Shown here: positions 18,912-26,058 of the stretch, piece by piece
How the letters are laid out: every line of letters starts with the position of its first letter
Position numbering within the stretch: the first letter of the stretch is position 1
Assembly (NCBI RefSeq): GCF_001426085.1
Contig: NZ_LMRR01000001.1
Location: forward strand, 373,539 to 437,538
DNA length: 64,000 bases
Reading direction: 5' to 3'
From: Rhodococcus sp. Leaf278
Lineage (GTDB): Bacteria; Actinomycetota; Actinomycetes; Mycobacteriales; Mycobacteriaceae
Notes under the pieces: model-generated
What the model saw: only the letters and a program-made list of their open reading frames with translations
The model's database searches: none
What the model was told of the DNA's origin: nothing
Position numbers and translations under genes: made by a program

Positions 18912-19991
18912 GTGAGCCTCACCCTCGGAATCGTCGGACTGCCCAACGTCGGCAAGTCCACCCTCTTCAACGCACTGACCAACAACGATGTGCTGGCCGC
19001 GAACTATCCGTTCGCCACCATCGAGCCCAACGTCGGTGTGGTCGCGCTGCCGGATCCCCGGCTCGAGAAGCTGGCCGAGGTGTTCGGTTCGGAGAAGCTG
19101 GTGCCTGCGCTGGTGTCGTTCGTCGACATCGCCGGCATCGTCAAGGGAGCGTCCGAGGGCGCTGGCCTGGGCAACAAGTTCCTCGCCAACATTCGTGAGG
19201 CCGACGCCATCTGTCAGGTCGTTCGGGTTTTCGCCGACGACGACGTGGTGCACGTCGATGGTCGCGTCGACCCGACCGCAGACATCGAGGTCATCGAGAC
19301 CGAACTCGCCATCGCCGATCTGCAGACTCTGGAGAAGGCCATCCCGCGCCTCGAGAAAGAGGTGCGGATCAAGAAGGATCGCAAGCCTGCACTCGACGCG
19401 GCCCTGGCTGCCCAGGCCGTGCTGAACGACGGCAAGACGTTGTTCTCGGCCAAGGCGAAGCTGGACTTCGAGCTGCTGGGTGAATTCCAACTGCTCACCA
19501 CCAAGCCTTTCCTGTACGTCTTCAACGCCGACGAGTCGGTGCTGACCGACGATGCGAAGATCGGCGAACTGGCTCGTCTCGTTGCCCCCGCCGATGCGGT
19601 GTTCCTCGACGCCAAGATCGAGTCCGAATTGCTCGAACTCGACAAGGAGTCGGCAGCGGAACTGCTCGAATCCGTCGGACAGACCGAGCCCGGTCTCGAC
19701 GCGTTGGCTCGCGCCGGCTTCCACACCCTGGGCTTGCAGACCTACCTCACCGCAGGCCCGAAAGAGGCTCGGGCGTGGACAATTCATCGAGGCGACACTG
19801 CGCCGCAGGCCGCCGGAGTCATTCACACCGACTTCGAGCGCGGCTTCATCAAGGCCGAAATCGTTTCCTACGAAGACCTCATCGCGGCGGGTTCCATGGC
19901 CTCGGCCAAGGCTGCCGGCAAGGTGCGCATCGAGGGCAAGGACTACATCATGTCCGACGGCGATGTCGTGGAGTTCCGCTTCAACGTCTAG
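18912..19991 (+). CDS. ychF: Redox-regulated ATPase YchF (Obg family)
   Basis: 359 aa, GTG start. P-loop GLPNVGKSTLFNAL, switch region PFATIEPNVGVV and G3 DIAGIVKGASEGAGLGN are followed by the YchF-specific FNADE in place of NKxD, explaining ATP rather than GTP preference. The C-terminal TGS domain ends EGKDYIMSDGDVVEFRFN. The last six codons and stop coincide with the att core of the downstream integrative element. The residues EFRFNV are unchanged, so the gene looks functional after insertion. Confidence 0.96.
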   Translation: MSLTLGIVGLPNVGKSTLFNALTNNDVLAANYPFATIEPNVGVVALPDPRLEKLAEVFGSEKLVPALVSFVDIAGIVKGASEGAGLGNKFLANIREADAICQVVRVFADDDVVHVDGRVDPTADIEVIETELAIADLQTLEKAIPRLEKEVRIKKDRKPALDAALAAQAVLNDGKTLFSAKAKLDFELLGEFQLLTTKPFLYVFNADESVLTDDAKIGELARLVAPADAVFLDAKIESELLELDKESAAELLESVGQTEPGLDALARAGFHTLGLQTYLTAGPKEARAWTIHRGDTAPQAAGVIHTDFERGFIKAEIVSYEDLIAAGSMASAKAAGKVRIEGKDYIMSDGDVVEFRFNV

Positions 19992-19993
19992 GT
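19971..19993 (+). repeat. attL core (ychF 3' end)
   Basis: The 23-bp core begins GAGTTCCGCTTC and ends GTCTAGGT. It encodes the final EFRFNV and stop of ychF, plus two more bases. It also contains the complement of the integrase stop codon (19988-19990). Its identical partner is at 26036-26058. Confidence 0.88.
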
Positions 19994-21238
19994 CTGCTGG
20001 TCAGCAGGTATTTTCGGGTTTCCGGTCCGCAGTGCGTCCGCAGTAGCCTCAACGAACATCGCGTCCGCAGCATTGCGTGTGCGGTCATCGGCGTTCGGCC
20101 ACAGGTGCGCGTACGTCGACAGTGTGACGTTGGGCGAGCTGTGACCCAGAGCTTCCTGGACCGTCACCACATCGCAGCCGGCGTAGATCAGACCCGACGC
20201 GTAGTAGTGGCGTAGGTCGTGCAGGTGCCAATCCGGTTGTCCGGCCAATTGCTTGGTCTTGCGCCAGCGGTACCCGACCGAGTTCTGATGCCACGGGTGT
20301 CCGTGCTCGCCGGGGAACAGCCATCCCGTCGGCTCGCTGCTCGGCAGCCACAGTCGGACGTGCTCAGCGACTATCTCGAGCAGGCCATCCGGTGCCGGAA
20401 TTGTGCGCTCGCTGCCATACTTGGGAGCGCGGATCTCGACAGTGCCGCCGTTGGCTCGCTGCACCTGGCGGCACACGTGGATCTCGCGGCGTAGGAAGTC
20501 GACGTCGTGGATCTGCAAGGCTGCGGCCTCGCCGAGCCGAAGTCCGGCGAATGCGGCCAGTGCGACGAAGGCCTTGAATTCGCCGTCGGCCGATCGGATC
20601 AGTTCGCCCACTTGTATGGGCTCGGGAATCGTCATCGCGGCCTCTGCACGACGACGGCGGGGGAGTGTGATGCGCTCGGTCGGATCCTCACCGAGTATCT
20701 TGTCTCGCTTCGCTGCTTTGAGCACCGAGCGGACGTTGTTGAATCGTGTTCCTATGGTCGATGGCTGCAGTGGCTTGTCCTGCATTGCCTTGACCCACGA
20801 CTCGATGTGCGACGGGCGGAGATCACACAGCGCAACCGCGCCGAACGTGACTCCGTTTGCTGCCAGATTCATTGCCTGCTCCGTGCCCGGAACCCACACC
20901 TGACGGGAGCTCCATTCTCTGTAGAACGACGCAAACGTGATCTCACCGCGCACCGGGTCGATGTAGTTGCCGGATACTTGGCTCGAGACGATCGTGTCGA
21001 GCCACTTCTGTGCGTCGACCTTACGGGTGAACGACTTCGCGTGTTCGGTCGACTCGTCGTCGACATACCCTGCACGCCAACGCTTTCCTTTGCCGAATGC
21101 CTTTGGCTTAAGTTTCATTACGGGAAGCCCGTCAGTATTGAACATTGGATTGCCGTCGCCGTCTACATCGTGGCGTGGCTTTGGAAGATCGCGCCACCGG
21201 TCCTCGACACCGGCCCGTCGGTTTCTGCGTGCGGTCAT
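19988..21238 (-). CDS. int: Tyrosine site-specific integrase
   Basis: 416 aa. An N-terminal arm-binding region carries an AP2-like KRWRAGYVDD segment. A SAM-like core-binding domain (residues about 100-180) follows, then the catalytic domain. All active residues are present: Arg234 (AGLRLGEA), Lys273 (APKYGSERT), His340 and Arg343 (HLHDLRHYYAS), His366 (LGHSS) and Tyr376 (STYAHLW). It should catalyse integration and excision at the ychF att site. It runs toward ychF, with its stop codon inside the att core. The start overlaps the upstream 118-aa gene by four bases (21235-21238). Confidence 0.95.
   Translation of the reverse strand: MTARRNRRAGVEDRWRDLPKPRHDVDGDGNPMFNTDGLPVMKLKPKAFGKGKRWRAGYVDDESTEHAKSFTRKVDAQKWLDTIVSSQVSGNYIDPVRGEITFASFYREWSSRQVWVPGTEQAMNLAANGVTFGAVALCDLRPSHIESWVKAMQDKPLQPSTIGTRFNNVRSVLKAAKRDKILGEDPTERITLPRRRRAEAAMTIPEPIQVGELIRSADGEFKAFVALAAFAGLRLGEAAALQIHDVDFLRREIHVCRQVQRANGGTVEIRAPKYGSERTIPAPDGLLEIVAEHVRLWLPSSEPTGWLFPGEHGHPWHQNSVGYRWRKTKQLAGQPDWHLHDLRHYYASGLIYAGCDVVTVQEALGHSSPNVTLSTYAHLWPNADDRTRNAADAMFVEATADALRTGNPKIPADQQT
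20025..20046 (+). repeat. Left copy of likely integrase arm-type site
   Basis: Two GTCCGCAG units stand in tandem (20025-20032 and 20036-20043), and a third is at 20063-20070. The 22-bp block recurs with one mismatch at 25915-25936, in the same orientation near the other end of the element. It lies inside the 3' coding part of the integrase gene. Confidence 0.5.
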
Positions 21239-21591
21239 CGGTGGGGAGGTTCGCTCGGAAAGATCTCGTCGAACTCGTTCTCGGTCAGCAAGATTCGATC
21301 GAAGACCGCTTCAACAATGCTGCGCTTGGCGCGATCGTCGGCATCGTCGTAGGAGAGGGCGCAGCTGTCTGGTCCGGGACTGCCTGGCGTCGGTACCCAT
21401 GACCTCCTGAGCTGCGACGCCAAATCAACAAAAACGTCTGCGATGGTTGCCTTCTTGAGCTCGCGGAGGAGCCTCAGCTCGGATTCGTCATTGAGGCTGT
21501 TGACGCCATGATCCACTGCTCGAAGAGCGCGCAGAACGGCCTGGCGGGCCTCACGCATGCAGGAAGCAGCCACCATGCCGCCACCGAACAA
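21235..21591 (-). CDS. Hypothetical protein upstream of the integrase
   Basis: 118 aa if started at 21591. Later starts at 21576 and 21558 are also possible, and the earliest one overlaps the HNH remnant on the other strand. It is helical and charged (ESELRLLRELKKATIADVFV), with an acidic C-terminus. Its stop overlaps the integrase start (ATGA), so it is translationally coupled to int. I recognise no family. An accessory role in recombination is a guess from position. Confidence 0.5.
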   Translation of the reverse strand: MFGGGMVAASCMREARQAVLRALRAVDHGVNSLNDESELRLLRELKKATIADVFVDLASQLRRSWVPTPGSPGPDSCALSYDDADDRAKRSIVEAVFDRILLTENEFDEIFPSEPPHR

Positions 21592-25645: not shown

Positions 25646-25812
25646 TCGTCAGCGTGTTCGGCCTGACGGAGATTCCCTCTGGCCTGATTCAGGTCGAAAA
25701 CTGCATCGCGCGCTACACCGTCCACCACCCGCAACTGCTCGTCCACGCCGTCGTTAAGCATCTCGGCACTTAGAGAATTGGTCGCCCCGATTGGTTCAGA
25801 TTGATCGGTCAT
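25642..25812 (-). CDS. Small hypothetical protein
   Basis: 56 aa from the ATG at 25812, which follows GGGGGTAG. It is hydrophilic and acidic (MTDQSEPIGATNSLSAEMLN, then DEQLRVVDGVARDAVF). Its stop overlaps the next gene's possible TTG start. First gene of the three-gene minus-strand operon; function unknown. Confidence 0.5.
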   Translation of the reverse strand: MTDQSEPIGATNSLSAEMLNDGVDEQLRVVDGVARDAVFDLNQARGNLRQAEHADD

Positions 25813-26035
25813 AGCTACCCCCGGGATTGTGTGGTCGGACCGTAGCCAATGCATACCAGACGTGGGCGACTGGTCCCACGAACTTCGCCAGACTGATCAC
25901 TGACCGCGCCCTCCGTCCGCAGAGCGTCCGCAGTAGAACCGCTCTCTGCCGTTATAGACAGTCTCTCAATCGACCCGTAAATGCTGCTCAAGCGGCTTGC
26001 CCATCACTTACCGTTTGTTGCAATTGCCCAGCGAT
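25813..26035. other. Non-coding right end of the element
   Basis: 223 bp between the last cargo gene and the attR core. It contains the right copy of the arm-type repeat (25915-25936) and presumably the promoter of the minus-strand operon. No gene is seen. Confidence 0.6.
25915..25936 (+). repeat. Right copy of likely integrase arm-type site
   Basis: A 22-bp block matches 20025-20046 at all but one position and has the same orientation. It consists of two GTCCGCAG units and lies 99 bp inside the attR core. Repeats near both ends suggest arm-type binding sites for the N-terminal domain of the integrase. Confidence 0.5.
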
Positions 26036-26058
26036 GAGTTCCGCTTCAACGTCTAGGT
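26036..26058 (+). repeat. attR core
   Basis: Exact 23-bp copy of the ychF 3' end (19971-19993), here outside any gene. The sequence after it should be the original chromosomal flank of ychF. Confidence 0.88.

Follow-up and report, generated by a model that had tools for sequence, protein, structure and literature searches.

A probable phage-derived integrative element at the 3' end of ychF in Rhodococcus sp. Leaf278

A 6-kb insert at the end of ychF

We analysed a stretch of 64,000 nt from Rhodococcus sp. Leaf278 (NZ_LMRR01000001.1, positions 373,539-437,538, forward strand; genome 5.72 Mb), hereafter the window, and conclude that a 6-kb insert within it is an integrative element, likely phage-derived, with its own integrase as the predicted agent of insertion into the 3' end of ychF. 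We give this reading a probability of roughly 0.92. The initial annotation had described a perfect 23-bp repeat covering the end and stop codon of ychF, with a second copy 6.07 kb away, and the sequence bears this out: the direct repeat GAGTTCCGCTTCAACGTCTAGGT is present as exact copies at 19971-19993 and 26036-26058 (+ strand), 6,065 bp apart from start to start. The left core (attL) consists of the last six ychF codons and the stop, followed by GT, while the DNA preceding the right core (attR) is unlike ychF. With up to three mismatches allowed, the repeat had two matches in the whole window against 0.00 expected (100 shuffles), and a 21-bp part of the core, with up to two mismatches, matched the 5.72-Mb genome twice, both times at the element ends.

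The target was said to be a protein-coding housekeeping gene whose frame is preserved. Indeed, ychF (18912-19991, + strand) is complete down to its stop codon within the core, and the NCBIfam family TIGR00092 matches it over its full length (4.3e-128, residues 1-359). Convergent to ychF lies int (19988-21238, - strand), which encodes a tyrosine integrase of 416 aa recognised by PF00589 (1.9e-25), by phrog_1 and by its motif residues: R234, K273, H340, R343, H366 and Y376, which we take to be the catalytic residues, sit within the expected motifs. According to the open reading frame (ORF) coordinates, the converging ends of ychF and int share the palindrome CTAG (19988-19991), and therefore both stop codons fall within the core. 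The initial annotation had likewise described a complete integrase facing ychF and ending in the core. In our model, one domain of the integrase would contact the core and the other domain the tandem arm repeats described below; the core of the circular element would recombine with the last ychF codons, leaving one core at each end. The ychF frame would be kept because the element brings identical final codons and a stop in its own core. Four parts of this model are inferred from the sequence, namely that the integrase acts on the ychF site, that the repeats are arm sites, that one helix-turn-helix protein is the excisionase, and that the insert descends from a prophage.

One prediction was that relatives should show an empty site with a single core. 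A pattern search of 37 genomes of the genus, including that of the window, returned 30 loci, of which 26 had a ychF 3' end (one being the window's own). In four of the 25 others (L048, L051, L063 and L064), ychF and one core run straight into the sequence that begins at 26059 in the window, with 90.7-92.5% identity to the window over 1,807-1,839 bp spanning the joint. The site is empty in these four genus-mates, since a single core connects ychF to the right flank (26059-27265, + strand), which contains an esterase gene (PF00756). Two findings had been named as contrary to an insertion, namely both repeat copies in strains without the integrase and conservation of the inserted genes in all strains. 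The pattern search detected no second core in the four empty-site genomes, and in the 36 other genomes of the genus the ychF locus lacked the central part of the insert (21300-25900; eight candidate places scored per genome). With the same scoring, fragments of 72-295 bp from the insert middle were found elsewhere in four of the 36. An integrase match at E <= 1e-40 was present in four of the 36, with no ychF within 1.5 kb on either side of these matches. The pattern search also gave near-core pairs 12.4 kb apart in two genomes (G009 and G012).

Arm-like repeats, cargo and the nature of the insert

The repeat search revealed an arm-like tandem at each end of the element: GTCCGCAGTGCGTCCGCAG(TAG) on the left (20025-20046, + strand), within the coding tail of int, and GTCCGCAGAGCGTCCGCAG(TAG) on the right (25915-25936, + strand). 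Each holds two 8-bp GTCCGCAG units, spaced at an 11-bp step (20025-20043 and 25915-25933). The exact tandem GTNCGCAGNNNGTNCGCAG matched at the two element ends only in the 64 kb, with 0.00 matches expected; the single 9-mer CGTCCGCAG had seven window matches versus 2.5 expected, a number reached by one of 100 shuffles. The left units sit in the last int codons, where one is translated as T-A-D and the other, in another frame, as L-R-T; this suggests selection on the DNA rather than on the protein. Among the 26 integrase genes used for the tree described below, 22 carry the tandem in the int tail, 32-56 bases before the gene end, the exceptions being L035 (none), L087 (variant letters), L015 (one unit) and L029 (second unit beyond the stop). 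Repeats were present at both ends in nine of the ten elements readable on both sides (the window, G401, G403, G404, G405, G406B, L020, L021 and L029), where the degenerate far-end repeats of G404, G405 and G406B were scored by eye, with no control for chance, and where G404, with its right end on a separate contig, was paired by inference. Of the ten, G401 and L021 alone carry CTGCGTAC letters in the int tail, and both show this version at the opposite end as well. From their sequence and position, the tandem 8-mers at both ends look like candidate arm sites of the integrase.

The stretch between the core and the left repeat was considered as a hairpin that could supply ychF with a terminator from the element. 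A terminator scan of this stretch gave no match, and RNAalifold predicted no structure for it from 17 sequences. A possible stem at 19994-20024, compared with the same stretch in 16 relatives, shows some compensatory changes and is weak in the window. For a six-pair stem chosen after viewing the sequences, 79.4% of the cells were paired and the covariation score was reached by 0 of 500 shuffles, a control inflated by the relatedness of the sequences.

Family scans were run on 10 ORFs of the insert. Next to int, overlapping its start by 4 bp, is an ORF of 118 aa (21235-21591, - strand) with no family above the cut-off. It is followed by a fragment of an HNH endonuclease gene (21642-21881, + strand; phrog_333, 7.7e-8), whose match stops at profile position 90 of 138 and which appears by eye to be frame-broken, by a DUF3800 protein of 236 aa (22661-23371, - strand; PF12686, 1.1e-10) and by an ORF of 100 aa (23679-23981, - strand), the DNA of which has a 246-bp, 80% identical relative in the genus genome G004. 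Two genes encode candidate excisionases: a helix-turn-helix protein of 69 aa (24013-24222, + strand; phrog_597, 1.4e-25) and an HTH_17 protein of 240 aa (24291-25013, - strand; PF12728, 4.2e-8; phrog_66, 0.0033). The last ORF, of 211 aa (25010-25645, - strand), matched a single relative, apart from itself, in the protein search. PADLOC gave weak matches only, to two helix-turn-helix proteins.

The record of the IMG/VR prophage G401 (38,257 bp) begins at the int stop and contains GAGTTCCGCTTCAACGTCTAG, the same 21-bp core, 36.8 kb further on. Six of its proteins were searched and correspond to a helicase, a terminase, a portal protein, a protease, a capsid protein and a regulator. When the window was compared with G401 and 12 other loci, the only shared cargo apart from the integrase was the 69-aa helix-turn-helix protein: G401 has a relative of it with 37% identity, and in both elements it lies some 1.8 kb from the right core.

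No capsid, terminase or other packaging or virion family, as expected of a complete prophage, was found among the 10 ORFs, and neither was a relaxase or transfer family, as expected of a conjugative or mobilizable element. We consider the insert likely to be a reduced prophage and prefer this over a phage satellite, which it possibly is. As a working satellite resembling the phage-inducible chromosomal islands (PICIs), it would have integrated in the same way and would move with a helper phage instead of being a decaying remnant. We think this unlikely, though not negligible: the element retains a complete integrase, its two cores and the arm-like repeats at either end, there are two regulator or excisionase candidates, and stable genes remain in spite of the small size of 6 kb. 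Moreover, the window integrase is the only unbroken one among the 15 genomes of its family with int sequence beside ychF. On the other hand, the HNH gene looks broken, and no packaging-interference or other capsid-redirecting, packaging, capsid or replication family was recognised in the 10 ORFs, which is not decisive as several of them have no known family. Very unlikely, in our view, is a mobilizable non-phage element merely sharing its integrase type with phages. The DUF3800 gene and most of the small ORFs are not phage-specific and there is no capsid or terminase gene, but the scans found no relaxase or transfer family either, the helix-turn-helix genes as well as the HNH fragment fall into phage families, and the nearest ychF-core relative of known neighbourhood is a phage, G401. 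Finally, a leftover duplication or chance match without any insertion, for which it speaks that excision of the insert is a prediction only, is hardly credible given 0.00 expected matches, the absence of the insert from other genus genomes and the one-core empty site in four relatives, which contradicts it.

Several observations weigh against the reading as an integrative element or against parts of it. In base composition, the insert differs little from its flanks. The empty sites read TAGCC where both window cores read TAGGT, and therefore only 21 of the 23 core bases are common to the window and the four relatives; the last two bases could come from the element or belong to the strain. The other 21 of the 25 ychF loci have a different right neighbour and no bearing on the right end. 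When three mismatches were allowed, the tandem repeat still had two matches, with 0.42 expected, and 5 of 100 shuffles reached two. As for the relatives, ychF is unseen in G401 because its record starts at the int stop, so that its place is deduced from the core, and the viral contig L141 has an integrase and the core with repeats on one side only.

Other occupants of the site and other targets of the integrase family

On the evidence of the sequences compared, the 3' end of ychF is occupied recurrently. Further ychF insertions were to be sought among relatives of the integrase, and we found them in Curtobacterium, in the family of G403 and in the window's own family. An integrase scan of genome contigs yielded 19 loci. 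Three of them, L018, L019 and L022 (Curtobacterium, 50-53% identity, L022 partial), adjoin ychF, and L030 (48% identity), within a tandem array in G406, is a fourth Curtobacterium integrase at this gene. The distance to the second core is 10.4 kb in G403 and 5.1 kb in G405. In the family of G403, 20 of 398 genomes match the core-plus-repeat pattern; among these, an integrase match beside ychF was found in G403, G405 (partial), G538 and G736 (broken), G620 retains an int tail, G580 has the repeats only, and the remaining 14 have no integrase match beside ychF. In the window's family, the pattern was matched by 19 of 401 genomes, including the window's own. Fourteen of the 401, from four other genera, carry int tails or larger pieces beside ychF, none of them unbroken in the 1.6 kb scanned; G135 has the repeats alone, and G157, G012 and G013 are without int beside ychF. 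These occupancy counts rest on the core-plus-repeat pattern and are lower bounds.

The nearest integrase to that of the window is L035 (79% identity), in whose record both int-tail repeats and a recognised core are absent. Among phage records, none of the 1,940 with a match to the window integrase reached 60% identity, and no phage record covered 80% of a 45-base query spanning the right junction.

Elsewhere in the family, the gene convergent to the integrase is glnA (L021 and L029; L015 by eye), yajQ (L020, with L037 sharing the same end), menB (L075), a methyltransferase gene (L076), a DUF4185 gene (L016; L017 and L074 by eye) or tRNA-Pro (L027, L028 and L031). We looked for a duplicate of the gene end at seven loci (L016, L017, L020, L021, L028, L029 and L031). 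The end was duplicated in L021 (glnA, 23 bp), L029 (glnA, 29 bp) and L020 (yajQ, 15 bp), and no second copy was found in the available DNA of L016, L017, L028 and L031. The duplicated glnA end, flanking integrases that belong to the same wider family, suggests that glnA is a further attachment site in a protein-coding gene. The copies of the glnA 3' end are at 11200 and 2584 in L021 (8.6 kb apart) and at 11157 and 1484 in L029 (9.7 kb apart).

In a tree of 26 integrases, the grouping of the seven ychF users as one clade was rejected by the approximately unbiased test (p-AU 2.8e-6), and with L141 and L035 removed, so was that of the remaining six (p-AU 0.0027). As far as these sequences resolve it, the ychF users of the family are not one clade; the tree does not tell an old target from repeated arrival. 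The family, with one arm design over about nine different neighbours, offers a natural series for the study of changes in core specificity. A wider reading would join these observations. The ychF end would be a long-used actinobacterial phage site, and one integrase family would shift among gene 3' ends (ychF, glnA, yajQ, menB and others), its core specificity changing while the arm sites stay fixed in the int tail; transcription of ychF would repress int until the element is circular. As a whole we hold this to be speculative and rather improbable. Its last part would follow from int facing its target and ending in the target's stop codon, so that antisense transcription from ychF would enter int in the integrated state only. 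The tail-to-tail overlap makes such control of int by ychF directly testable.

Some further loci are recorded here as separate observations. In Curtobacterium flaccumfaciens G406 (contig C37, 163736-180498; L087, L083 and L030), ychF, a core and an integrase are followed 16.7 kb on by a second core and an older integrase remnant, and the genome appears to carry two elements in tandem at ychF. At L071 (1196-1495, by family search) and at L012, L013, L072, L073 and L077 (by eye), an integrase lies where a SigM-like gene stops after its first half, so that an insertion there would interrupt the gene. Two core patterns gave 11 and 21 IMG/VR contigs, which were excluded from the counts; L138 is G401's own record, and most matches of the second pattern look like chance. 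L134, L136 and L157 have GGTGGAG ahead of the core and no ychF, and L137, L140 and L142 have the ychF end without a match to the window's integrase family. The contig L141 was tried as an unintegrated attP and set aside as ambiguous: it has a 57% identical integrase and the core, no ychF, and no arm-like repeats within 260 bp on the other side. At 1386-4007 it shows the tyrosine integrase and the ychF core, then a serine recombinase ORF (by eye), then phage-like ORFs. Another type of integrase, shorter (ORFs of 256-284 aa), lies beside a ychF-end core in L133 (8518-9398), L135 (7562-8442) and L143 (6871-7736), and is a possible second lineage at the site.

Relation to known elements

Lambda-type integrases use a core and arm-type repeats on both sides, which they bind with two domains. 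The window's element resembles them in having a core with arm-like repeats on both sides, and two-domain binding would be expected; it differs in that its candidate arm repeats are 8 bp long at an 11-bp step. In Escherichia coli, phage 21 and e14 use the 3' end of icd, and the gene is restored by the element. Elements that use and restore a gene 3' end are thus a known kind; the target and the anatomy of the present one are new as far as the searched text goes. A further example, judging from the part of the source available, is PAISt, which inserts at the 3' end of bacA (PMC4057263). Like the icd and bacA elements, the insert shows tyrosine-type site-specific insertion with a short core at a gene 3' end, and supplies the gene end itself. 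Unlike them, it targets ychF, its int reads towards the target and terminates within the target's stop codon, and arm-like repeats lie within the int tail.

In the open-licence PubMed Central (PMC) text searched, the sole ychF-side site, as far as the excerpts go, is that of pneumococcal prophages and satellites, which adjoin ychF with their core upstream of it, between a dnaN or DUF951 gene and ychF (PMC6375853, PMC8637289, PMC10383233). In these excerpts, the pneumococcal elements are likewise of phage type and beside ychF, but their site is upstream and outside the coding end, whereas the window core consists of the last ychF codons and the stop; the core sequence and the phylum also differ. 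The initial annotation could not recall ychF as a described attachment site. To this extent and no further the searches of the same text agree, as they returned no description of the ychF 3' end in this role; supplementary tables, subscription papers and TIGER/Islander may list the site.

With the ychF end, our analysis contributes an attachment site in a protein-coding gene, met repeatedly in the two actinobacterial families searched, where catalogued tyrosine-integrase sites are mostly tRNA or transfer-messenger RNA (tmRNA) genes. Where tRNA sites are already taken, integrases of this kind might be used as tools for integration. In the excerpt available for Mycobacterium abscessus, 16 of 23 tyrosine-integrase sites are tRNA or tmRNA genes (PMC10654092), and the portions seen of the accounts of mycobacterial prophages and PICIs do not name a ychF site (PMC10654092, PMC9934374). 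A short integrase element between 23-bp repeats occurs at attB6 of R. equi, in a partial text that leaves the gene unnamed (PMC6948317). The insert resembles the mycobacterial prophages and candidate PICIs as an actinobacterial integrase element, some of those being defective or satellite-like according to the same excerpts (PMC10654092, PMC9934374).

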